From positions 4,216,001 to 4,280,000 of the forward strand of contig NZ_CP109078.1 of NCBI RefSeq assembly GCF_035917455.1: a stretch of 64,000 bases of DNA, given 5' to 3'. Positions 21,030 through 64,000 of the stretch are shown here, one piece after another; the stretch's first letter is position 1; each line of letters starts with the position of its first letter. The position numbers were made by a program, and so were the translations under genes. This DNA is from Micromonospora sp. NBC_01796 (lineage in GTDB: Bacteria > Actinomycetota > Actinomycetes > Mycobacteriales > Micromonosporaceae). Below the pieces are notes generated by a model. The model did no database searches, was not told the origin of the DNA, and worked only from the letters and a program-made list of their open reading frames with translations.

Positions 21030-21048
21030 GCTAGGCCGATACCTCGAC

Positions 21049-21104
21049 TAATACAGAGAATGAGTGGCTATCCGAGCTGGGATAACCACTCATTCTCTGT
21101 ATTA
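21049..21104. repeat. Type A intergenic palindrome, copy 1
   Basis: Arms 21049-21067 and 21086-21104 are perfect 19-bp complements (core GAGAATGAGTGG). After one mismatch, a further 5 bp (21069-21073 with 21080-21084) extend the stem to a 6-nt loop. It is far more AT-rich than its surroundings and lies between the convergent arginase-like and penicillin-binding genes. It may act as a bidirectional terminator. A second copy of the core lies at 28.5 kb. Confidence 0.8.
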
Positions 21105-21153
21105 GCGCCCAGCAGCGGGCGGGAGCGGGGCGGGGCGGGCGGGGGTGGATGGG

Positions 21154-28482: not shown

Positions 28483-28548
28483 CGCACGGTTTCGGAGAAT
28501 GAGTGGTTGTCCCGTCGTGGACAGCCACTCATTCTCAGTATCCGTGCG
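28483..28548. repeat. Type A intergenic palindrome, copy 2
   Basis: It begins immediately after the glutamate dehydrogenase stop codon. Inner arms 28495-28512 and 28519-28536 share GAGAATGAGTGG with copy 1 and pair over 18 bp with one G-U. Outer arms CGCACGG (28483-28489) and CCGTGCG (28542-28548) extend it. Here the flanking genes are co-directional, which fits a terminator for the dehydrogenase. Confidence 0.78.
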
Positions 28549-52526: not shown

Positions 52527-54011
52527 GTGACGTCGGCAACACTGCTTAGCTCCGAGACTCTGCCTCCGGAACTGCCACCGGAGGCGTCCGCTGTCACGAC
52601 CAGGTCAAGGCATCGGGCTTACCTCCGAACCACCCTCGTCTTCGACACCATCACCCTCGGGGTCGCCGTACTGGTCGGATACTTCGGCCGGTTCGGGGGG
52701 GACGATCCACGGGGCTCCGACATCTCGTACCTGATCATCGCCCCCGCGCTGGTGCTGATCTGGTTGCTCTCGCTACGCGGCATGCGCGCGTACGACGACC
52801 GGGTGCTGGGGTACGGCGCGGACGAGTACCGGCGGGTCACCGCGGCGAGCCTGAGGCTGGCCGGCGGGATCGCGATCGCCGGCTACATCGCCGACGTGGG
52901 AGTGTCCCGGGGTTTCCTCGGCATCTCCTTCGCGGTCGGCACGGTCGGCCTGGTGGTCGCCCGGTTCGCCGCCCGCAAACGACTGCACCGGGCCCGCGCC
53001 CGTGGGGTCGGGTGGGCCAGGCAGGTGCTGGTGGTCGGAGACACCCCGCACGTCCTGGAGTTGGTGCACACGCTGCGTCGGGAGCCGCACGCCGGTTACC
53101 AGGTGGTCGGTGCCTGCATCCCGGACGCCCTGCTGGCTCCGGTGCCGCAGCGGTTGGGTGACGTACCGGTGGTCGGGTCGTTGCGCGGGGTCGCGGACGC
53201 CGCGGTCGCGGTCGGTGCCGACACGGTCGCGGTGACCGCGTCCAGCGAACTCACCGCCACCCGGCTGCGTCGCCTCGGCTGGCAGCTCGAGGGGACCGGG
53301 ATCGACCTGGTCCTGGCACCGGCGCTGACCGACGTGGCCGGCCCGCGCATCCACACCACACCCGTGGCCGGGCTGCCGCTGATCCACGTGGAGGCACCCG
53401 AGTTCCGGGGCGCCCGCAAGGTCGTGAAGGGTTTCGTGGACCGGGCGGCGGCCTTCGCGGCGCTCACCGTGGCCCTGCCGATCCTGGCCGTGCTGGCGCT
53501 GGCGATCAAGCTGGACAGCCGGGGGCCGGTGATCTTCCGGCAGATCCGGGTCGGCCAGGGCGGCCGGGAGTTCGGTGTCTACAAGTTCCGCACCATGGTG
53601 ACCAACGCGGATGCCCTGCTGGCCGAGTTGACCGCCCGGAACGAGACCGACGGCCTGATGTTCAAGATGCGCGACGACCCCCGGGTGACCCGGGTGGGCA
53701 AGTTCCTGCGCAAGTGGTCGCTGGACGAGTTGCCGCAGCTCGCGAACGTTCTGTTCGGTCACATGAGCCTCGTGGGCCCGCGCCCGCCGCTCCCCTCCGA
53801 GGTGGCCCGCTACGACGGCGACGTGGCCCGCCGCCTGCTGGTCAAGCCCGGCATGACCGGCCTCTGGCAGGTCAGCGGCCGCTCCGACCTAACCTGGGAA
53901 GACGGCATCCGCCTGGACCTCTACTACGTAGAAAACTGGTCCCTAGCCGCCGACCTAACCATCCTCTGGAAAACCTTCGGCGCCGTAATAAACAGCCGAG
54001 GCGCCTACTAA
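52527..54011 (+). CDS. Polyprenyl-phosphate sugar-1-phosphate transferase
   Basis: 494 residues, the WbaP/CpsE-type plan. Four N-terminal membrane helices (LVFDTITLGVAVLVGYFGRFG, DISYLIIAPALVLIWLLSL and two more) precede a CoA-binding-like domain (ARQVLVVGDTPHVLELVHTL) and a fifth hydrophobic segment (AAAFAALTVALPILAVLALAI). The bacterial sugar transferase domain follows, with KFRTM, KWSLDELPQLANVLFGHMSLVGPRPPLPSEV and KPGMTGLWQVSGRS. It would start assembly of an exopolysaccharide or glycan unit on undecaprenyl phosphate. GGGGAGGGCCGG precedes the GTG; a longer GTG start 135 bp upstream is unlikely. Confidence 0.9.
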   Translation: MTSATLLSSETLPPELPPEASAVTTRSRHRAYLRTTLVFDTITLGVAVLVGYFGRFGGDDPRGSDISYLIIAPALVLIWLLSLRGMRAYDDRVLGYGADEYRRVTAASLRLAGGIAIAGYIADVGVSRGFLGISFAVGTVGLVVARFAARKRLHRARARGVGWARQVLVVGDTPHVLELVHTLRREPHAGYQVVGACIPDALLAPVPQRLGDVPVVGSLRGVADAAVAVGADTVAVTASSELTATRLRRLGWQLEGTGIDLVLAPALTDVAGPRIHTTPVAGLPLIHVEAPEFRGARKVVKGFVDRAAAFAALTVALPILAVLALAIKLDSRGPVIFRQIRVGQGGREFGVYKFRTMVTNADALLAELTARNETDGLMFKMRDDPRVTRVGKFLRKWSLDELPQLANVLFGHMSLVGPRPPLPSEVARYDGDVARRLLVKPGMTGLWQVSGRSDLTWEDGIRLDLYYVENWSLAADLTILWKTFGAVINSRGAY

Positions 54012-54043
54012 CCCCCCCAACCCCCCACCCCACCCCCGATCTT

Positions 54044-54110
54044 CCCGTTGATCATGAAGTTAGCGACGCGATCCGGCTCGTTGGACGTCGCTAACTTCAT
54101 GATCAACGGG
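54044..54110. repeat. Type B intergenic palindrome, copy 1
   Basis: Arms 54044-54068 and 54086-54110 are perfect 25-bp complements with a 17-nt loop. The arm contains CGTTGATCATGAAGTTAGCG. It sits between the convergent transferase and ROK-regulator genes and ends 2 bp before the latter's stop codon. The same arm recurs at 58.3 kb and a related one at 62.9 kb. Confidence 0.85.
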
Positions 54111-54112
54111 CT

Positions 54113-55453
54113 TTACGGGGTCAGCCAGGGGGCGGGGTTGGCGAGGACGGTGCGGACTATGGAGCCGGCGGCGCCTAGGACGGCGGCGTCGCGGGTGAGG
54201 AGGGACGGGCGTATGGAGACGGGGGACCAGGCGGCGGTGAGGACCCGGGTGCGGATCTCGATTTCCAGGGGTGGGCGGAGCCACTGGGCCAGTGGGGCGT
54301 AGATCCCGCCGAGCACGACGGTGTCCAGATCCAGCAGGTTGATCACCCCGGCGATAGCCACACCGAGCGCGGTGGCCGCCTCGGTCAGCGCGGCGAGCGC
54401 CGCCGGGTCGCCGGTGCCGGCCAGCTCGGCCAGCCGGGCGATCGCCGCGTCGGCGGGCAGCCCCCGGCCGGCGAGCCCGGCACCGGTCAGGATCGCCTCC
54501 TGGCCGGCGTACTGCTCCAGGCAGCCACGGGAGCCGCAGCGGCAGGGACGGCCGGTCGGGTGGACCGGCAGGTGGCCGAGTTCACCGCTCCAGCCCCTGG
54601 CCCCCCGGAACAGGGTGCCGTGCAGCACGATTCCGGCCCCGATGCCGATCTCGCCGGAGACGTACAGGAAGGTTGCCGGGCCGGGTGGCCCCGCGTGCAG
54701 CTCGCCGAGAGCGGCCAGGTTCGCCTCGTTGTCGATGGTCAACCAACCACCGTTGCCGGCCCGCCGACGCGGGTTGGCGGGGCCGGGGATCCGGGCCGCC
54801 GGCCGGGTCGGCGCCGGGATGACCGCGCCCGGTTGACCGGGTACGGACAGCCGGTGACCGGCCAGCGCCGGGTGCGTGTTGAGCCCGCCGACCAGGTCGA
54901 CGTCGCGCCAACCCAGGTTCGGCGCCAGCCGTACCACGCCGGACTCGGTGACCAGCCCCGGTACGGCCAGCGCGGTCCCGGCGAGGGTCAGGCGCTGGCG
55001 AGCGGCCTCGGCGCGGGCGGTGGCGGCGAGGTCACCGAGGTCGTTGAGCACCTCGGCGGGCGAAATCGGGCGCAGGTCGACCCGGCGGACCGCCCGGTGC
55101 CGGACGGCTCCGGTCAGGTCGACCACGCAGGCGGCCAGGTAGTCGACGTTGATCTCCAGGCCGAGTCCGGCCGGCCCGTCGGTGGCCAGCACCAGGCCGA
55201 GGGCGGGTCGGCCGGCACCGGTACGGGGAGCCGGGTCGACCTCGGTCAGCAGGTGCCCGCCGATCAGGTCGTCGACCAGGGCGGAGACGGTGGCCCGGGT
55301 GAGTCCGGTGGCGGTGGCGAGATCGGCGCGCGAGGGTGGACGGGGCGCGTCGGCGATGTGCCGCAGCAGCAGGGCCAGGTTGTGCTCACGCAGGCTCGCC
55401 TGGCGTACGGCCGTGCCCGCCGTACCCACCTGGCCGTTGCCGGGTTGCGTCAC
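54113..55453 (-). CDS. ROK-family transcriptional regulator (XylR type)
   Basis: 446 residues. The N-terminal winged helix has [47 protein letters not shown] sugar-kinase-like domain follows, with [19 protein letters not shown], the [11 protein letters not shown] region, and the zinc motif [14 protein letters not shown] with its three cysteines. Divergence from xylA across 74 bp makes it the likely xylose-responsive repressor of xylAB. GTG (VTQPGNGQ) is taken as the start; a longer ATG start would run across the operator-like DNA. Confidence 0.88.
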
Positions 55454-55475
55454 GTCTTGACAATGCCACAGGCCG

Positions 55476-55490
55476 GTCAAATAATTCAAC
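55476..55490. promoter_or_regulatory. Candidate operator between the ROK regulator and xylA
   Basis: GTCAAATAATTCAAC is an imperfect palindrome (10 of 15 positions) in an AT-rich island within the 74-bp divergent region. It contains TTGACC for the minus strand at 55475-55480. Its place makes it the obvious site for the adjacent ROK regulator. Confidence 0.4.
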
Positions 55491-55527
55491 GGGTAAACAA
55501 ATCAAAGATGTTACGTGGAGGTCATCG

Positions 55528-56715
55528 ATGGCTGCCCAACCCACTCGCGCCGACAAGTTCTCGTTCGGACTCTGGACCGTGGGCTGGGAGGCCCGCGACC
55601 CGTTCGGTGACGCCACCCGCGCCCCGCTGGACGCGGTGGAGGCCGTGCACAAGCTCTCCGAGCTCGGTGCGTACGGCATCACCTTCCACGACGACGACCT
55701 GATCCCGTTCGGCTCCGACGACGCCAAGCGCGAGCACCACATCAGCCGCTTCCGCAAGGCGCTGGACGAGACCGGCCTGGTGGTGCCGATGGTCACCACC
55801 AACCTGTTCACCCACCCGATCTTCAAGGACGGCGGGTTCACCAGCAACGACCGCGACGTACGCCGGTTCGCCCTGCGCAAGGTCCTGCGCAACGTCGACC
55901 TCGCCGCCGAGCTGGGTGCCAAGACCTTCGTGATGTGGGGCGGCCGGGAGGGCTCGGAGTACGACGTCGCCAAGGACATCCGGGCGGCCCTGGACCGCTA
56001 CCGCGAGGCGGTCAACCTGCTCTCCCAGTACGTGATCGACAAGGGCTACGACATCAAGTTCGCGATCGAGCCGAAGCCGAACGAGCCCCGGGGCGACATC
56101 CTGCTCCCGACCGTCGGCCACGCCCTGGCCTTCATCAACGAGCTGGAGCACCCGGAGCTGGTCGGCCTCAACCCGGAGACCGGGCACGAGCAGATGGCCG
56201 GCCTCAACTACGCGCACGGCATCGCGCAGGCGCTCTGGGCCGGCAAGCTGTTCCACCTCGACCTCAACGGCCAGCGCGGCATCAAGTACGACCAGGACCT
56301 GGTCTTCGGTCACGGTGACCTGATGAACTCGTTCGCCCTGGTCGACCTGCTCGAGTTCGGTGGCCCGCAGGGCGCCCCGGCGTACGAGGGGCCGAGGCAC
56401 TTCGACTACAAGCCGTCCCGGACCGAGAACTTCGACGGGGTCTGGGCGTCGGCCGCCGCCAACATGCGCACCTATCTCCTGCTCAAGGAGCGGGCGGCGG
56501 CGTTCCGGGCCGACCCGGAGGTGCAGGCCGCCCTCGCCGCCAGCAAGGTCGACGAGCTGTCCACCCCGACCGTCGGTGCCGGCGAGACGTACGCCGACCT
56601 GATCGCCGACCGGACCGCGTTCGAGGACCTCGACGTGGCCGAGGTGTCGGCGCGCGGCTTCGGTTTCGTGCGCCTGAACCAGCTCGCGGTCGAGCACCTG
56701 CTCGGCGCTCGTTGA
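55528..56715 (+). CDS. xylA: Xylose isomerase
   Basis: 395 residues, the short (class I) actinobacterial xylose isomerase. [21 protein letters not shown] precedes the catalytic region [14 protein letters not shown] (His and Asp), [34 protein letters not shown] (metal Glu), [14 protein letters not shown] and [18 protein letters not shown] with metal Asp/His residues. It converts D-xylose to D-xylulose. GTGGAGGTCATCG precedes the ATG. It is followed after 76 bp by xylB. Confidence 0.96.
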
Positions 56716-56791
56716 TCCGTACGCCCCTTCCTATCCGTACCCCTGCCCGCTAGACCACCCACCAACCCTCAGCCAGCCACGGAGGCCGGAC

Positions 56792-58249
56792 ATGGCGCTC
56801 GTCGCCGGGGTCGACTCGTCGACCCAGTCGTGCAAGGTGATGATCCGCGACGCGGAGACCGGCGAACTCGTCCGCTCCGGACGGGCCGCCCATCCGGCCG
56901 GCACCGAGGTGGATCCGCAGGCGTGGTGGGATGCGTTGCAGGATGCCGTGGCGCAGGCCGGCGGCCTGGCGGACGTGGCTGCCGCCTCGGTCGCCGGCCA
57001 GCAGCACGGCATGGTCTGTCTCGACGAGCAGGGCGGGGTCGTCCGCCCCGCCCTGCTCTGGAACGACACCCGTTCGGCCGGTGCGGCGGTCGACCTGATC
57101 GAGGAACTCGGCGGGGCCGGTGACGGCGGCTCCGGTGGCGACCGGGTCGGTGCCCTGGTGGCCGGTCGGCACGCCTGGGCCGAGGCGGTCGGCAGCGTAC
57201 CGGTGGCCAGCTTCACCGTGACCAAGCTCCGCTGGCTGGCCCGCAACGAGCCGGCGTCGGCGGAACGTACGGCGGCGGTCTGCCTGCCGCACGACTGGCT
57301 CACCTGGCGGCTGGCCGGTGCCACCGGGCTGGACGCCCTGCGTACCGACCGGGGCGACGCGAGCGGCACCGGTTACTGGTCGCCGCGCACCGGCGAGTAC
57401 CGGCTCGACCTGCTGGAACAGGCGTTCGGCCGGCGACCGGTGCTCCCGGTCGTGCTCGGCCCGACCGGTCGGGCCGGCGAACTGCCCAACGGCGCCCCGC
57501 TCGGCCCCGGCACCGGCGACAACGCCGCCGCGGCGCTCGGCGTCGGCGCGCTGCCCGGTGACGTGATCGTCTCCATCGGCACCTCGGGCACCGTGTTCAG
57601 CGTGGCCGAGACACCCTCGCAGGACAGCTCCGGCGCGGTGGCCGGTTTCGCCGACGCCACCGGCCGTTTCCTGCCCCTGGTCGCCACGCTCAACGCGGCG
57701 CGGGTGCTGGACGCGGCGGCGAAGATGCTCGGCGTCGACCTCGACGAACTGGCCCGGCTGGCCCTCTCAGCGCCCTCGGGCGCGGACGGGCTGGTCATGG
57801 TGCCGTACCTGGAGGGCGAGCGGACCCCCAACCGCCCCCTGGCAACCGGCGCGGTGCACGGCCTGACCCTGCGTACGTCCACCCCCGCCCACCTGGCGCG
57901 GGCGGCGGTCGAGGGCCTGCTCTGCGGCCTCGCGGACGGCCTGGACGCGATGGTCGCCCAGGGTGCCACGGTCAACCGGGTGATCCTGGTCGGCGGCGGT
58001 GCCCGCTCCGAGGCGGTACGCCGGATCGCTCCCGAGGTGTTCGGCTGCCCGGTCCTGGTCCCCGCCCCCGGCGAGTACGTAGCCGACGGCGCCGCCCGCC
58101 AGGCCGCCTGGGTAGCCCTCGGCGGCGAAGCCCCACCCCCCTGGGCCGCCACCACCACCGAGCAGTACGACGCCCCTCCCGCCCCCCACATCCGCGACCA
58201 ATACACCACCGCCCGCGACCTCTTCACCAACCGCCCCGCCCCCGCCTAA
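56792..58249 (+). CDS. xylB: Xylulokinase
   Basis: 485 residues of the FGGY carbohydrate kinase family: [14 protein letters not shown] (phosphate loop), [51 protein letters not shown] with the catalytic Asp, and [22 protein letters not shown]. It phosphorylates D-xylulose to xylulose 5-phosphate for the pentose phosphate pathway. GGAGGCCGGAC precedes the ATG. A type B palindrome lies 17 bp after its stop. Confidence 0.95.
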
Positions 58250-58266
58250 CCACCCCCGGCTCACCT

Positions 58267-58328
58267 CGTTGATCATGAAGTTAGCGCAGGTTTGATCTCT
58301 GCTGGGCGCGCTAACTTCATGATCAACG
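58267..58328. repeat. Type B intergenic palindrome, copy 2
   Basis: Arms 58267-58287 and 58308-58328 are perfect 21-bp complements; 20 bases (CGTTGATCATGAAGTTAGCG) are identical to copy 1. The 20-nt loop is unrelated to that of copy 1. It lies between the convergent xylB and propeller-protein genes. Confidence 0.85.
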
Positions 58329-58336
58329 GCAGAGGG

Positions 58337-59560
58337 TCAGAAGGTGGTTGCTGTGGTGGTGGGGGGGAGGGCGTTGGAGGGGCCGATGAACTGTTGTGCG
58401 GGGCGTTCGCCGGTGATGGTCGGTATCGAATTCACCACTCGTCCGGTCAGGTCGACCACGATCAGTTCGTGATTCACTTCGGCAACTGGTGTGCTGGTGG
58501 CGGCGGACGGGCCCGTTGACGGAAGCCGCCTGACGTTCGACCGGTTCAGCAGCAGGTGCTCGGTGTCGTACCAGCCGATCATCGCGTTGAAACGGGGCGT
58601 CGTCAGCGTGTGCCGTACCGCCCCGGTGGTCGGGTCGGCGATGACGATGGAGCCGGAACCGGCGCCCCCCGGTCCCATCAGGAGGGCCATGCTGTTGCCG
58701 TCGGGGGAGAAATCGGGCGGTAGGGCGACGACTCCGGGACCGGTGCTGACGTCGCGCACCAGCGCGCCGGTCAGGTCGTAGAAGCGGATGCTCGTCACCG
58801 TCGCCCTGCCCCCCTCGGCGACCAGGGTCAGCGCCAGGGCGACGTTGTTGCCATCCGGCGTCCATTCCAGACTCGGCGGGCGGTCCAGGGACGCGAGTCC
58901 GGGCAGCGGCACGAAGGTGGTTTTCAGCGTTTCCGGGTCGACCAGCGCGAAGCCGGGTTCGCCCGGTCGCGGTAACTGGGTGAAGAGGATCCGCTGCCCG
59001 TCCGGCGACCACCGGCCGTCGCCCGGATACCGCGAGCCGGCCGCGCCGGCACCGCCGAGGTCGTCGATCCACCGTACGTTCCCGCTGGCCCGGTCCATCA
59101 CGCCCACCCGCCCCGGGTGGGCCGTACTGCCGTCGCCCGCGCCGACCACCACGCGGGAGCCGTCCGGTGACGGCATGACGTACCGGTAGGGCACCCGTTC
59201 GTACCGGCCGGTCTTCGGGTCGAGCAGGAGTGAGTGCCAGAACCGTGGACTCGAATCCGCGATCGTCACGTCCCGGATGCCGCTGTACGCCGTGACCACG
59301 TGCGGCTTCAGCGTGGTGCCGGCGACCGGTCCGGTGCTGTCGGGCGGGGTGGTCGTACCGCTGGTCGGGGCGACCGCAGCGACCACCCCGACCAGGGCGG
59401 CGCAGACGCCGGTGGCCACCCCGCCACCTGCCACCCGTCGGGCGACCCGTTGCCGTCGGGCGGTGAGCAGCACGGACGAGGCCAGCCCGGCCGGCGGGGA
59501 AGCCGTCTCGGCCAACTCCTCGAACGTGTTCCGGAGCGCTCCGGTGAGGTACGGATTCAT
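58337..59560 (-). CDS. Single-pass membrane beta-propeller protein, partner of the sigma factor
   Basis: 407 residues. A cytoplasmic N-terminus of about 45 residues (LRNTFEELAETASPPAGLASSVLLTARRQ) precedes one membrane helix (GGGVATGVCAALVGVVAAVA). An outer domain of TolB/WD40-like blades follows (YRYVMPSPDGSRVVVGAGD, DGRWSPDGQRILFTQ, SLEWTPDGNNVALAL, PPDFSPDGNSMALLM). The ATG overlaps the sigma-factor stop (ATGA), so the two are made together. It may be a membrane anti-sigma or sensor protein, but no known anti-sigma domain is visible. AAGGAGAGGACAAGCCG precedes the start. Confidence 0.75.
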   Translation of the reverse strand: MNPYLTGALRNTFEELAETASPPAGLASSVLLTARRQRVARRVAGGGVATGVCAALVGVVAAVAPTSGTTTPPDSTGPVAGTTLKPHVVTAYSGIRDVTIADSSPRFWHSLLLDPKTGRYERVPYRYVMPSPDGSRVVVGAGDGSTAHPGRVGVMDRASGNVRWIDDLGGAGAAGSRYPGDGRWSPDGQRILFTQLPRPGEPGFALVDPETLKTTFVPLPGLASLDRPPSLEWTPDGNNVALALTLVAEGGRATVTSIRFYDLTGALVRDVSTGPGVVALPPDFSPDGNSMALLMGPGGAGSGSIVIADPTTGAVRHTLTTPRFNAMIGWYDTEHLLLNRSNVRRLPSTGPSAATSTPVAEVNHELIVVDLTGRVVNSIPTITGERPAQQFIGPSNALPPTTTATTF

Positions 59561-60081
59561 CGGCTTGTCCTCTCCTTCGTACCGAGGAGGTCGAGGTCGG
59601 GGCAGAGCACACGCAGCCGGGCGAGGGCACGGGCGTGCTGGCTGCGTACCGTCGATTCGGTGCAGCTCAGGATCAGCGCGATCTCGCTGTCCGGGCGGTC
59701 CTCGAAGTAACGCAGCACCAGCACCGCCCGGTGTTTCGGGGCGAGTCGCGCCAGCGCCCGTCTGAGCGTCAGATGAAGGTCGACCGTGGCACTGTCGTCC
59801 CCCGGTGCCCGGACCTCCGGCACCCGTTCGATGCTCACCTCGCGCCGCCGCCGTACGCTGCGCCACCAGCTCGTCTGCTCGCGGTAGAGCGCGGTACGCA
59901 GGTACGCCTCGGGATTGCCGGTACGGATCCGCCCCCAGTGCCGTACGCCCCTGGCCAGCACCGTCTGGAGCAGGTCCTCGGCCTGTTGGCGGTGCCCGGT
60001 GAGGGCGAGCGCGGTGCGGAACAGCGAGTGTGAGCGCGTCTCGACGAAGTCGGTGAACTCCCGTTCGAGCTCAGCGTTCAT
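59557..60081 (-). CDS. SigE-family ECF-like RNA polymerase sigma factor
   Basis: 174 residues with region 2 (FTDFVETRSHSLFRTALALTGHRQQAEDLLQTVLARGVRHWGRI) and region 4 (ALARLAPKHRAVLVLRYFEDRPDSEIALILSCTESTVRSQHARALARLRV). It belongs to the actinobacterial SigE-type group of small sigma-70 factors. The target promoters are not known. It is translationally coupled to the downstream membrane propeller gene. No Shine-Dalgarno is obvious at the ATG. Confidence 0.9.
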   Translation of the reverse strand: MNAELEREFTDFVETRSHSLFRTALALTGHRQQAEDLLQTVLARGVRHWGRIRTGNPEAYLRTALYREQTSWWRSVRRRREVSIERVPEVRAPGDDSATVDLHLTLRRALARLAPKHRAVLVLRYFEDRPDSEIALILSCTESTVRSQHARALARLRVLCPDLDLLGTKERTSR

Positions 60082-60158
60082 CTAAATGCCTATCCCTCAT
60101 GCCGATGACAACGCCGGACAGGGGACGGCTGCTGCTTTCCCGAAGGAGTCTTCAATCA

Positions 60159-60224
60159 AAGATCTGAGATCTTGGTACGGAATCGTCGTGGCGACGACGT
60201 CGCGATTCCAAGATCTCGGATCTT
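60159..60224. repeat. AAGATC double palindrome upstream of the sigma-factor gene
   Basis: Arms 60159-60175 (AAGATCTGAGATCTTGG) and 60208-60224 are complementary at 16 of 17 positions, and each arm is itself near-palindromic. Shorter inner pairs (GAATCG with CGATTC) add to the stem. It lies between the DUF397 and sigma-factor genes, both on the minus strand. Confidence 0.7.
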
Positions 60225-60239
60225 GCCCGGTGGTACGGG

Positions 60240-60428
60240 TCAGGGGTGGCGGAGGCCGGATACGAAGGTGCGCCAAGTGGCGGGCGTGAAGGTGAGGGTG
60301 CCGCCGTCCCGGTCCTTTGTGTCCCGTACCAGCACCCGGCCGGGCAGGTTGTCCGCCACCTCCACACAGGCGCCGTTGTTCGCACCGCTGCGCGTGCTGG
60401 TCCGCCACCGTGCACCGGTCAGATCCAT
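60240..60428 (-). CDS. DUF397 small protein
   Basis: 62 residues: WRTSTRSGANNGACVEVADNLPGRVLVRDTKDRDGGTLTFTPATWRTFV is the full DUF397 domain. Such proteins are nearly always encoded beside an HTH/DUF5753 regulator, and may act as a partner, possibly antitoxin- or anti-regulator-like. Here it overlaps the end of such a regulator gene by 10 bp, but that gene carries a nonsense codon. Confidence 0.92.
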   Translation of the reverse strand: MDLTGARWRTSTRSGANNGACVEVADNLPGRVLVRDTKDRDGGTLTFTPATWRTFVSGLRHP

Positions 60429-61222
60429 GTCTCCGCGACCTCCATGAGCTTGTCGATCGACTGCTGGGGCGCCAGCGCCTCACCAAGTATCGCCTCCCAG
60501 ACGTCGCGCACCTCGGCGATATCGGTCTCGCGGGCCACCACCTGGCCCAGCAACTGATTGTCCAGGTAGACGACCTCCTCGCCGCCGGTCACGCGGGCGA
60601 TGATGAAAGGCCCGTCGAGTCCCGCGTAGGCACCGGCACTCGACGGGACCACATGGAGCCGGACCCGGGGATGTTCGGCGGCCAGATTGGCCAGGTGCAA
60701 CACCTGTTCGCGCATCACCTTCGGGCCGCCGATCGGTCGGCGCAACACCGACTCGTCCAGCGTCGCGACCAGCAGGGACAGGTTTTCACCATCCAGAACC
60801 CGCTGCTGCTCCAGTCGGCGCACGACCCGCCGTTCCGCCTCCTCCGTGCTGATCCGATCGTTGCAGGCGTAGACCGCACGGACATACGCCTCGGTCTGCA
60901 GCAGGCCGGGCACCCAGCCGTGCTCGTACCAGCGCAACATGGTCGCCTCGCGCAACATCTCGGTCCGTTCACGGACCCACGGCGGTATGAGGTCCAGGTC
61001 ACCCAGTTCGACCCAGAGCCGCTCGAACAGGCCGCCGTTCCTGAGTCCCCGGTCGACCGCGCGGATGTATTCAATCGTCGGTGGGCGGGTGCCGTTCTCG
61101 ACCGCACTGACGTGGGACGGGGAGAAGTTGCACCTCCTGCCGAACTACTCCTGGGTCTCCTCGACCAACATCCGCGCCCGGCGGATCTCCCGTACGACGA
61201 ATGCCTGAACCGATACGTCCAT
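60419..61222 (-). pseudogene. HTH/DUF5753 regulator interrupted by an in-frame TAG
   Basis: From ATG at 61222 the frame reads MDVSVQAFVVREIRRARMLVEETQE and then TAG (61145-61147, codon 26). It continues in the same frame as FGRRCNFSPSHVSAVENGTRPPTIEY, the rest of a typical XRE helix-turn-helix, and then DUF5753 to the end (MLRWYEHGWVPGLLQTEAYVRAVY). Without the stop it would be 267 residues, the normal family length. The first later ATG (60958) would give a 179-residue protein without the HTH. So it is either a recent pseudogene, a suppressed codon or a sequencing error. Confidence 0.85.
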
Positions 61223-61389
61223 CTGCCGTCCAATCCCTGGATCGAGCTGCGCTGGCCAGCCATCAAGCCTAGAGATGGGGACGACTCAACGTGAACCCAT
61301 GACTCCCCAGAGCTGCCCAAATCCGCCCCGTGATTCCCCACCGGGCCCGGATGCGGCCCTATCCGGGGTCGTTGCCGCATGCTGTTCGG

Positions 61390-62865
61390 GTGTCGGAGAT
61401 GACCAAGACCGGTGGTGGAGGCAGGGTGGCCCGGGGCGGTGGCCCCGGACACCGGTTCTACAGCGTGCTGGTTTTTGTCGTGCTCGCCTCGCTGGACAAC
61501 GTCGCCATCGGCCTGGTGCCACCGCTGTACGCGCCGATCAGCTCCACCCTCGGCGTCAACACCTCGGCGATCGGGCTGGTCACCGCGATCAGTTTCCTGG
61601 TCAGCGCGATAGCGGCGGTCGGCTGGGCGTACTTCGGTGATCGGACCAACCGCAAACCGCTGCTGATGATCGGCACCCTGCTGTGGGCGGTCGGTACTGC
61701 CGGCAGTGCCGCCGCCGGCAACTACCCGGACTTCTTCGGCGCCGCCGGGGGGTACCCCGCGTTCTTCCTCGCCCAGGCGGTGGCCGCGATCGGTCTCGGT
61801 GCCGTCGGCTCGGTCGGGTTCTCGGTGGTCACCGACCTCATCTCGCCCCGCCGCCGGGGACTGGTGATGAGCTTCTGGGGACTGTCGCAGGGTATCGGCA
61901 CCCTCGCCGGGACCCTGCTCGGCGGCATCCTCGGCTCGACCGACTGGCGGCTGCCGTTTCTCGTACTGAGCGTTGCCGGGCTGGTCGCCACGGTTTTGTA
62001 CCTGTTCACGTACGACATCCAGCGGGGGCAGAGCGAGCCGGAACTCGCGCAGGCGCTCGCCACCGGGCACGAGTACGACTACCGGATCAGCCGGGCCGAC
62101 CTGCCGAGAATCCTGAACCGGCGGACCAACCGGTGGCTGATCCTCCAGGGGCTGACCGCGCAGGCGGCCTTCGGCTCACTGGTCTGGCTGCCGGTCCTGT
62201 TCCAGGAACGGGCGCAGGACCAGGGTTTCTCCAGCTCGACCGCGATCATCATCGGGAGCGTCTTCGCCACCCTGTTCCAACTCGGCGGGGTGCTCTCCAT
62301 CGTCGGTGGACTCGTCGGCGACGCACTGCAGCGGCGTACGCCCAGGGGCCGGGCGTTGGTCGCGGCCGTCGGCATTCTCGCGGCCGTGCCGTTCTACCTG
62401 GTCCTGTTCTTCGTGCCGATCCGGATCGACGTCCCCGACGGCGCCGGCGCCGGTACGGTCATCAGCTCCGTGGTGGGCAGTGTGTTCACCGAACCGACGG
62501 TCGGCTTCAGTCTGCTCACCGCGCTCCTCGCGCTCGCCCTGACCTCGGCGAACTCGCCGAACTGGTTCGCGCTGATCGCCGACGTGAACCCGCCCGAGCA
62601 CCGGGGCACCGTCTACAGCCTCGGCAACCTGGTCAACGGGGTCGGCCGGGCCGCCGGCAACGGCCTGGTCGGGATCGCCTTCCAGGGGCTGCGGGCGGCG
62701 TTCCCGCCCCCGCTGAACTTCGCCGTCGGCCTGGCCGCCTTCCAGCTCTTCTTCATTCCCACCGGAATCATGTACTGGCTCGCCTCCCGCACCTCCCCCA
62801 AGGACATCAAGAACGTCCACACCCTCCTCCAGTCCCGCGCCGACGACGCGGCCCCCCACCCCTGA
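61390..62865 (+). CDS. Major facilitator superfamily transporter
   Basis: 491 residues from GTG (VSEMTKTGG), 12 predicted membrane helices. Helix 1 is SVLVFVVLASLDNVAIGLVPPLY, and the A-motif-like loop is GWAYFGDRTNRKPLLMIG. RRRGLVMSFWGLSQGIGTLAG lies in the N-half, a long central loop (DIQRGQSEPELAQALATGHEYDYRISR) separates the halves, and GTVYSLGNLVNGVGRAAGNGLVG lies in the C-half. It resembles Spinster-type MFS carriers. The substrate is unknown. CATGCT six nt before the GTG suggests a leaderless start; ATG three codons later is the alternative. Confidence 0.82.
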   Translation: MSEMTKTGGGGRVARGGGPGHRFYSVLVFVVLASLDNVAIGLVPPLYAPISSTLGVNTSAIGLVTAISFLVSAIAAVGWAYFGDRTNRKPLLMIGTLLWAVGTAGSAAAGNYPDFFGAAGGYPAFFLAQAVAAIGLGAVGSVGFSVVTDLISPRRRGLVMSFWGLSQGIGTLAGTLLGGILGSTDWRLPFLVLSVAGLVATVLYLFTYDIQRGQSEPELAQALATGHEYDYRISRADLPRILNRRTNRWLILQGLTAQAAFGSLVWLPVLFQERAQDQGFSSSTAIIIGSVFATLFQLGGVLSIVGGLVGDALQRRTPRGRALVAAVGILAAVPFYLVLFFVPIRIDVPDGAGAGTVISSVVGSVFTEPTVGFSLLTALLALALTSANSPNWFALIADVNPPEHRGTVYSLGNLVNGVGRAAGNGLVGIAFQGLRAAFPPPLNFAVGLAAFQLFFIPTGIMYWLASRTSPKDIKNVHTLLQSRADDAAPHP

Positions 62866-62872
62866 CCGCGCC

Positions 62873-62941
62873 GATCTTGCAGTTGTGGCGCCCAGCTCAT
62901 CCCGATTCGGGGCTTATCCGAGCAACCACAACTGCAAGATC
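62873..62941. repeat. Type C intergenic palindrome, related to type B
   Basis: Arms 62873-62888 (GATCTTGCAGTTGTGG) and 62926-62941 are perfect 16-bp complements around a 37-nt loop. Reading the right arm outward gives GTTGATCTTGCAGTTGTGG, which matches the type B arm GTTGATCATGAAGTTAGCG at most positions. It lies between the convergent MFS and alpha-glucosidase genes. Confidence 0.8.
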
Positions 62942-62977: not shown

Positions 62978-64000
62978 TCAGGGGTGGAACCAGACGGTTA
63001 CGTCGGTGGGGACGTGGTTGTCGGGGTTGAGGGGTTCGGTGGATTGGAGCACGGTGGCGCCCTCGGGCAGCGGCGCCGGGTCGGGGCCGAAGTTGGTCAG
63101 GACCGAGAGGTTGCCGTTGCGGAAGTGGATGACGTCGTCGGGGCTGGTGAGCCAGTAGACGGTGCCTCGGCCGAGGGCCAGTTCGCGGCGCAGTCGCAGG
63201 GCGGTCCGGTACAGCTCGTACGTCGACCCGGCCACGCCGCGTTGCAGGTCGAGGGCGTACTCGGCGTAGAGGGCCGGCTGCGGCAGCCAGCTCCGGTCGG
63301 TGGGGCCGAAGCCGTACGACGGGGCGTCGGACTCCCACGGGATCGGCACCCGGCAGCCGTCCCGACCCTTGTGGGCGTGTCCGCTGCGCTCCCAGGTCGG
63401 GTCCTGGCGGGCCTCGTCCGGCATCGTGGTGTGCTCGGGCAGGCCCAGTTCCTCACCCTGGAACAGGTACGCCGAGCCGGGCAGAGCCAGCATCAGCAGG
63501 GTCGCCGCACGGGCCCGACGCAACCCGAGTACGGCGTCCGGCTGTGGGTCGTCGGCGCCGATCCCGTTCGGCCGGGTCTGGCCGACCGGGAGCCCGAGCC
63601 GGGTCGCGTGCCGGATCACGTCGTGGTTGGAGAGCACCCAGGTGGTGGGGGCGTTGACCGCCGCACTCGCCTCCAGTGAGCGGGTGATGACCGCGTACTG
63701 GGCGGGTGCGGTCCAGGCCGCCTCCAGGTACTCGAAGTTGAACGCCTGGTGCATCTCGTCCGGGCGGACGTACGCGGCCAGCCGCTCCGCGGGCTGCACC
63801 CACGCCTCGGCGACCAGGATCCGCTCACCCGGATAGCTGTTCAGCACCTGCCGCCAGTCCCGGTAGATGTCGTGCACCCCGTCCTGGTCCCACATCGGCG
63901 GGCGGGGACGGTCGGTGCCCTCGCCGGAGAGCGGTTCGAGCGGGTAGCTCCAGTCGGCGAGATCGGCCTGCTTGATCAGCCCGTGGGCGACGTCGACCCG
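62978..64000 (-). CDS. GH13 alpha-glucosidase, N-terminal part outside the window
   Basis: The frame is open from the right edge, giving 340 residues plus the stop. At the very edge is conserved region II (RVDVAHGLIKQADL), whose Asp is the GH13 nucleophile. Region III (RILVAEAWV) has the acid/base Glu and region IV (VLSNHDVIRHATRLG) the transition-state Asp. FQGEELGLPEHTTMPDEARQDPTWERSGH is typical of oligo-1,6-glucosidase/alpha-glucosidases. A C-terminal beta domain ends in NHVPTDVTVWFHP. It would hydrolyse maltose-type or isomaltose-type oligosaccharides, or sucrose. About 200 N-terminal residues are missing. Confidence 0.92.
   Translation of the reverse strand, partial: RVDVAHGLIKQADLADWSYPLEPLSGEGTDRPRPPMWDQDGVHDIYRDWRQVLNSYPGERILVAEAWVQPAERLAAYVRPDEMHQAFNFEYLEAAWTAPAQYAVITRSLEASAAVNAPTTWVLSNHDVIRHATRLGLPVGQTRPNGIGADDPQPDAVLGLRRARAATLLMLALPGSAYLFQGEELGLPEHTTMPDEARQDPTWERSGHAHKGRDGCRVPIPWESDAPSYGFGPTDRSWLPQPALYAEYALDLQRGVAGSTYELYRTALRLRRELALGRGTVYWLTSPDDVIHFRNGNLSVLTNFGPDPAPLPEGATVLQSTEPLNPDNHVPTDVTVWFHP

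Follow-up and report, generated by a model that had tools for sequence, protein, structure and literature searches.

Dispersed palindromes in Micromonospora flanked on both sides by a strand-asymmetric halo

Three palindromes and the composition of their flanks

A stretch of 64,000 nucleotides (nt) from Micromonospora sp. NBC_01796 (contig NZ_CP109078.1, positions 4,216,001 to 4,280,000; here, the window) contains three long hairpins that belong to two families of palindromic elements, A and B. A previous sequence-only reading had described them as perfect palindromes lying between convergent genes and had proposed a dispersed, amplified family used as bidirectional terminators or as the structured target of a protein or RNA. 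The perfectly complementary arms of 25, 21, and 16 bp were confirmed, as were the 20 arm bases (CGTTGATCATGAAGTTAGCG) common to the hairpins at 54044-54110 and 58267-58328. For the hairpin at 62873-62941, the reported framework GTTGATC(A/T)TG(A/C)AGTT was found on the right arm only, and the left arm begins GCCGATC. Genes were called with our own dicodon caller, and the flanking stops (54011/54113, 58249/58337, and 62865/62978) are all convergent. Allowing at most two mismatches, the arm core matched the window eight times, six of them inside the three hairpins, compared with 0.22 matches expected from shuffles. RNA folding z-scores of the hairpins were −11.3, −7.7, and −5.8, and Rfam gave no match within the window at gathering scores. 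The elements of the window and the flanks of the first are as follows.

54044..54110, no strand: family A element, 25-bp perfect arms, 17-nt loop; GTTGATC to GATCAAC at 54047-54107
58267..58328, no strand: family A element, 21-bp perfect arms, 20-nt loop
62870..62944, no strand: family B element, 16-bp perfect core arms at 62873-62888 and 62926-62941, 37 nt between them
53844..54043, + strand: C-rich, G-poor halo left of the first element, skew 0.52 in the nearest 100 nt and 0.12 in the next 100; enters the end of the sugar transferase gene
54111..54310, + strand: G-rich, C-poor halo right of the first element, skew 0.39 and then 0.30 per 100 nt
21048..21105, no strand: family C element, CTAATACAGAGAATGAGTGG arms, with the same halo as the A and B hairpins
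28483..28548, no strand: relative of family C with a weak halo, flank skew 0.11 and 0.12

In families A to D, the strand reading towards the palindrome was C-rich and G-poor on both sides of the element, and this halo faded by ~200 nt. Over 100 nt, the flank skew was 0.64 and 0.58 at the second element and 0.46 and 0.62 at the third; the family C element at 21048-21105 had 0.49 on each side. When the window was scanned without reference to the elements, its four strongest C-to-G switches were the three reported hairpins and this C element. The same scan of a 1.664-Mb genome sample around the window (80 stretches plus the window) placed A-D elements at 24 of the 25 strongest switches, 40 of the strongest 50, and 47 of the strongest 100, and at none of the top 100 switches of opposite sign. 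Several of the 17 non-A-D switch places shown hold imperfect copies of C or a further palindrome family. Skew exceeded 0.2 on both sides of 42 of 52 elements and on at least one side of 51, and 29 of the 52 lay above the 99.9th percentile of random positions. Pooled copies of A and B behaved similarly (132 of 179 with both sides above 0.2, one with a negative mean). The G+C content was unchanged (0.718 in the 100-nt flanks and 0.709 overall). The halo was also found in two relatives, G048 (families A, B, and D) and G010 (A and D), and at 31 copies from loci L096 to L125.

The orientation of the adjoining genes did not affect the halo. Most A-D copies outside convergent junctions had a C-rich left flank and a G-rich right flank regardless of gene orientation. 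For family A, the skew at 0 to 25, 25 to 50, 50 to 100, and 100 to 150 nt was 0.68, 0.77, 0.42, and 0.25 on 13 sides facing a gene start and 0.64, 0.65, 0.44, and 0.24 on 21 sides facing a stop. Start-facing and stop-facing sides were likewise similar for family B, for C and D, and for copies in loci with the exact arm (174 sides).

Other palindromes and junctions had little or no halo. Close-in skew on 150 sides of non-family hairpins was 0.00 to 0.09, and convergent junctions without A-D elements averaged 0.06 (n = 192). Across the own genome (G000), 183 other hairpins and the palindromes of families E and K showed a skew of none to 0.10. Sides of E and F ranged from −0.11 to 0.30, the three F copies had 0.09 to 0.19 within 200 nt, and 11 K copies in G010 had 0.13 to 0.17 within 100 nt. 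No halo was found at 17 Escherichia coli clusters resembling repetitive extragenic palindromic (REP) sequences in 150 kb, matched to a REP consensus with three mismatches allowed, where several single matches of 15 to 17 nt may be chance.

The halo extends into coding sequence. Over the last 100 codons of 58 genes with an A-D element at most 120 nt from the stop, G at third positions fell from 0.41 to 0.14 and C rose from 0.52 to 0.72; the control value for G at the gene end was 0.36 both in 1,037 genes without an element (from 0.42) and in 87 genes with other hairpins. TAA stops made up 38% of stops beside elements versus 6%. In the 1.664-Mb sample, the last 30 residues beside A-D elements were richer in Pro (0.127 versus 0.071) and Thr (0.110 versus 0.067) and poorer in Gly (0.052 versus 0.093) and Val (0.047 versus 0.081).

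The genes adjoining the three hairpins have ordinary functions, and in each the stop faces the element.

52527..54011, + strand: bacterial sugar transferase (PF02397), facing the first element
54113..55453, − strand: ROK family protein (PF00480), facing the first element
56792..58249, + strand: FGGY carbohydrate kinase, facing the second element
58337..59560, − strand: protein with a weak PD40 match, facing the second element
61426..62865, + strand: MFS transporter (PF07690), facing the third element
62978..64000, − strand: alpha-amylase family protein (PF00128; the 305 aa in the window were scanned), facing the third element and leaving the window

A further long palindrome with AAGATCTGAGATCTTGGTACGGAATCG arms lies at 60159-60224, between called genes and outside families A to F; its flank skew is weak and uneven. 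The stretch at ~60240-60950 has many matches in each of two genomes of the same genus at ~65 to 85% identity and is a multicopy coding or repeat family.

Anatomy, dispersal, and placement of the elements

Across the single 8.56-Mb contig of the own genome, the combined arm pattern GATCNTGNAGTT..AACTNCANGATC fitted 62 places, whereas a reversed control fitted none, and the family A pattern fitted 45 places. These counts, together with presence and absence at orthologous junctions (below), bear out the proposed dispersed and amplified family. In the 1.664-Mb sample, 19-nt family A arms with at most two mismatches were found 18 times forward and 18 times reverse, and all 18 forward arms were paired, so the palindrome is the unit. 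Allowing at most three mismatches per 16-nt arm also gave 18 copies, the count obtained at two mismatches per 19-nt arm. A 15-nt core with two mismatches gave 23 forward and 21 reverse matches, 18 of them paired, and its reversed control gave four; the unpaired core matches are near chance. Further long-palindrome families in the sample were named B to F, of which C and D are defined through loose word patterns, and family K (AAGGGGCCCTT type) was added later.

Of 300 genomes of the bacterial family, 129 carried the combined pattern, as did 16 of the 44 genera; in one genus (g44), the number of copies ranged from 0 to 84. Among the places listed, arms were often largely uniform within a genome and different between genomes, with arm types mixed in G105, G094, and G265. 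A draw of 396 genomes across the phylum gave matches in the own genome and in one other of the same family only, and 71 of 80 loci listed for the exact 19-nt arm were titled Micromonospora. In the own genome, 34 of 45 family A copies lay no farther than a quarter genome from dnaA (2.966 Mb), and the 2.45-Mb stretch that includes the presumed terminus had no copy. Arm words of A and B occurred in 13 and 29 stretches of viral contigs, one match each; we judged, without a calculation, that these 16-mer matches may be chance occurrences. Two other palindromes were seen alongside. Another family with TGATCACGAAGGGTTCGGC-like arms sits at strong C-to-G skew switches of the own genome (G000:C1, ~4961681, 5001621, and 5002701), and G010 has a dispersed palindrome of its own (GTAAGGAAGGGCCCCTTGTTAACGC) in tight stop-to-stop gaps, with little halo (0.13 to 0.17 within 100 nt); at one junction it occupies the place of the family B element of G000 and G048.

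Family A copies are nearly constant in length. In 97 loci picked by the exact 19-mer, a choice that biases arm conservation there, the span from GTTGATC to GATCAAC was 61 nt in 85 of 94 pairs; lone arms numbered four, two with a damaged partner, plus four at locus edges. The GATC-to-GATC distance was 54 to 55 nt in 43 of 43 copies. For 25 A copies taken from the pattern search of the own genome, the pattern itself dictated arm positions 1 to 12. Covariation was analyzed in 129 distinct 61-nt copies from all sources, filtered for A at position 8 and for at least 14 of the 15 outer positions being paired or wobble paired. Arm positions 4 to 7, 10, and 13 to 15 were nearly invariant, and paired changes on both sides exceeded all 300 shuffles, which ignore the relatedness of the copies, at positions 9, 11, 16 to 18, 20, and 21. 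From position 22 inwards, pairing fell to 0.19 to 0.42. Because near-invariant positions occur together with compensating paired changes, both sequence and pairing appear to matter in the family A arms, which lends indirect support to the suggestion of a structured protein or RNA target.

The loops of family A are variable and fall into a few loose classes, read from the copies by shared words. At junctions occupied in two species, the arms mostly differed at few of 36 positions. For 53 pairs with both flanks alignable, the two loops were more alike in the same orientation in 13, more alike when inverted in 10, and alike in neither way in 30; these pairs are not independent, and excluding eight that were array neighbors (four L147/L222 and four L193) left 11, 8, and 26 of 45. 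The resemblance in the inverted-loop pairs stayed within the 95th percentile found for unrelated copies of that loop class, so that loop inversion is indistinguishable from replacement. In chloroplast DNA, minute inversions place a hairpin loop in opposite orientation among relatives; the present loops differ in having been compared among dispersed copies.

Loops inverted or swapped for another class, with arms nearly unchanged, were seen at orthologous junctions in L163/L175, L131/L190, L122/L125, L201/L196, and others. At G000:C1 5054014 (in L054) and in the G048 copy at the first window junction, the loop is itself almost perfectly palindromic, giving arms of 30 to 31 and a loop of 2 to 3, as template switching at a hairpin could produce.

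The sequence-only reading held that every copy lies between converging genes, which is true of the three in the window. In the 1.664-Mb sample, 6 of 17 intergenic A copies (P = 0.08) and 11 of 17 intergenic B copies (P = 4e-5) were convergent, with one extra copy of each family inside a called gene. The element lay nearest to a stop in 13 of 17 cases for A (P = 0.006) and 14 of 17 for B. Other palindromes with arms of at least 16 were convergent in 27 of 54 cases. Among pooled A and B copies with both neighbors called, 94 of 163 were convergent, and 24 more were inside called genes or at edges. The convergent preference is thus significant in the own genome for B and not for A, and in the pooled set it is strong and not exclusive. 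Uncalled gene ends were seen beside several tandem and divergent copies; the convergent share is therefore probably underestimated, and some start-facing sides really face a stop.

Along ~400 kb shared with two collinear relatives, there were junctions with an element in one species and a short stop-to-stop gap in others. In 121 comparisons of flanks of families A to D with their orthologues, the element was missing in 87 and present in 34, and 21 of 44 orthologous convergent junctions had no palindrome with an arm of at least 11 in any of the species compared. The first element of the window occurs in G048 with a different loop and is missing from G010, the second has a counterpart in G010, with arms GTCGATCATGAAGTTGGCGC, at the orthologous junction, and the third is found in G048, the same junction in G010 holding an unrelated hairpin.

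Substitutions beside the elements and the origin of the halo

Orthologous flanks were compared with and without the element. Element-free flanks had a skew of 0.16 versus 0.35 in element-bearing ones at 50 to 100 nt and of 0.04 versus 0.15 at 100 to 200 nt, and the substitution asymmetry was clear only if the partner lacked the element. Where both species carried the element, the halo was stronger (0.69 versus 0.46 at 0 to 50 nt), which suggests that it may build up with age. Substitutions were polarized with two empty relatives on 28 sides of 17 elements of B, C, and D. Four kinds of change were enriched on the incoming strand within 100 nt: G>C 5.8-fold (39 changes), G>A 2.5-fold (14), T>C 2.3-fold (7), and C>A 2.9-fold (8). 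Beside other hairpins (94 sides, within 200 nt), the ratios for G>C, G>A, C>G, and C>T were 0.7 to 1.1. At 4-fold sites, G>C was found at 58 of 182 sites at most 200 nt away compared with 47 of 597 beyond 300 nt (ratio, 4.0; 95% interval, 2.8 to 5.7), and C>G at 8 of 218 compared with 54 of 709 (ratio, 0.51; 0.20 to 0.94).

Since the halo ignores gene orientation, is limited to certain families, and goes with the element, we infer that it is placed at the level of DNA and centered on the palindrome. The polarity of the skew, with G exceeding C outwards, is the one that the origin of an outward process has, and exposure of the outgoing strand could give the main changes on that strand (C>G, C>T, and A>G). 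We give about an even chance to the following reading: these are elements like REP doublets forming hairpins (REPINs), with arms recognized through sequence and pairing, and a protein acting on the arms starts an outward, DNA-level process that reshapes the flanks. The palindromes would be short noncoding units with two inverted arms at a near-fixed distance, which would multiply in their genomes and come to lie mostly after the ends of genes. A protein would act on the arms, and this activity would repeatedly start an outward process at the palindrome, whether strand opening, a nick or break with repair, or outward transcription. The outgoing strand would be left exposed, and on the strand reading towards the palindrome, G would be replaced by C and by A. 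Transcription termination may be a side effect that accounts for neither the arms nor the halo. A more specific form is put forward tentatively, as somewhat improbable: the arms would be the target of an enzyme that repeatedly opens or cuts the chromosome, so that each copy would be a focus of strand-asymmetric substitution, with ~200 bp remodeled on each side, among them stop codons, synonymous sites, and the final residues of adjoining proteins, and with loops that flip or are exchanged.

Several observations weigh against a protein-driven, outward DNA-level process. No protein acting on the arms was found, and no target site duplication was apparent by eye at empty and filled sites, where the flanks are too diverged. 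Little or no halo at E, K, F (weak), and the E. coli REP clusters means that REP-like elements do not carry a halo as a general rule. The invariance of position 8 was chosen by the covariation filter, which also favored pairing at positions 1 to 15; positions 16 to 21 are free of it. The polarized test includes no family A element, and element-free orthologues retain a skew of 0.30 at 0 to 50 nt. At 4-fold sites, C>G and C>T lie under background, which misfits purely additive mutation and would also fit selection, leaving room for the latter, and C>A is raised (9 of 218 near, 8 of 709 far), fitting neither simple reading. Pure selection and pure additive mutation were each rejected, as neither fits the ratios for G>C (4.0) and C>G (0.51) and the raised C>A jointly.

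The main rival is that the elements are bidirectional terminators, as first proposed, with a C-rich, G-poor approach on which Rho can load and a hairpin that stops polymerase or protects the 3′ end, selection on RNA making the skew. The positions nearest to stops, the convergent share of the pooled copies, the strong folding, the C-rich and G-poor 3′ ends, and the frequent TAA stops all accord with it, as do the lowered C>G and C>T and two sites where G010 has another hairpin in place of the element of G000. A stable hairpin does lie behind a stop, though not in all copies. The T-rich tract of an intrinsic terminator (at least four T in the first six) was present in 0 of 58 cases, though other hairpins mostly lack it too (2 of 87). 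The halo is equal on sides facing gene starts (some with an uncalled gene end), hairpins of other kinds behind stops show no halo, skew averages only 0.06 at convergent junctions that lack A-D elements, and 21 of 44 orthologous convergent junctions have no palindrome with an arm of at least 11 in any species compared. The amino acid composition of protein ends is shifted as well, and in tandem contexts, wobble pairs fell on the transcribed strand 25 times and on the other 19 times (P = 0.45), which gives no support at the RNA level. We consider the terminator proposal unlikely; a halo of this kind is not easily accounted for by the usual signals that end transcription.

Outward promoters would account for the sign of the skew. 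If the palindrome started transcription both ways, R-loops would expose the outgoing strand and leave it G-rich, as downstream of strong starts, and the C>G, C>T, and A>G changes on that strand fit such exposure. Family A arms have G or C at 8 of 19 nt compared with 0.709 for the genome stretch, which also speaks for this reading. The arms of A, B, C, and D share no promoter motif by eye (no motif search was run), and the transcripts would enter many neighboring gene ends antisense, which makes this explanation improbable.

It is still harder to see the elements as REPINs proper, moved by a RAYT tyrosine transposase. The architecture is as published (PMC3116915), but a search of the own genome for the Y1 (RAYT-type) transposase domain PF01797 gave no match, as did 18 of 20 chosen element-carrying relatives (two matched); the arms have no GTAG tag, and no lone 19-nt arms were found in 1.664 Mb. 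This explanation is very improbable. An insertion preference for places where C-rich sequence already switches to G-rich, which would explain why nearly all copies lie at such switches and why empty orthologues retain skew close in, is also very improbable, because element-free orthologous flanks are clearly less skewed and because the changes on the side that bears the element go the way of the skew.

A local switch in skew is usually attributed to a replication origin or a transcription unit. In this genome, such switches mark tens of short elements and are stronger there than in element-free orthologues, so that the source of local strand asymmetry in bacteria can be tested repeatedly, with naturally empty sites as controls. 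If a protein acting on the arms does drive an outward process, a noncoding repeat can alter the protein ends of its neighbors, and REPIN-like elements can exist and spread without a RAYT.

Relation to known palindromic repeats

A literature search, made mostly outside subscription journals, found no description of palindromes in Micromonosporaceae or of skew around REP sequences. The closest relatives in form are the REPINs of Pseudomonas, which are described as having two inverted ends that do not vary, a spacer between them that changes in sequence and keeps its length, and compensatory changes (PMC3116915). The present elements resemble REPIN and REP sequences in the hairpin, the invariant inverted ends, the variable spacer of fixed length, the compensatory changes, the extragenic position, and the many copies. 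Two inverted ends of ~16 nt were found, their invariance partly fixed by the search patterns; family A spacers vary in sequence and are fixed in length; and compensatory stem changes occur at positions 16 to 18, 20, and 21, outside the pairing filter. In contrast to REPINs, the elements occur in a genome without a Y1 transposase match, and in place of the GTAG tag the family A arms read GTTGATC. Lone single REPs, as decay products, are missing (0 of 36 arms of 19 nt with at most two mismatches in 1.664 Mb). The host belongs to the Actinobacteria, and the flank halo found here was lacking at the 17 E. coli REP-like clusters.

Two other groups of repeats share part of this anatomy. CGTC-tagged REPs, reported from five other phyla, have stems of 8 to 9 bp, loops of 4 to 5 nt, and a CGTC tag (PMC3733652); like the present elements, they are dispersed palindromes, mostly behind genes, for which no dedicated transposase was found. 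The arms in the window are 16 to 25 bp with 17 to 37 nt between them, and family A has no CGTC tag. DNA uptake sequences of Neisseria and Pasteurellaceae also consist of a conserved word in inverted pairs behind genes, paired as terminators, and the words recur singly (PMC1852404). In contrast, the elements here have no lone 19-nt arms in 1.664 Mb and no T tail. Three features of REPINs (the transposase, the tag, and the single units) do not hold here, and we class the elements as a variant of dispersed palindromic repeats with a REPIN-like anatomy.

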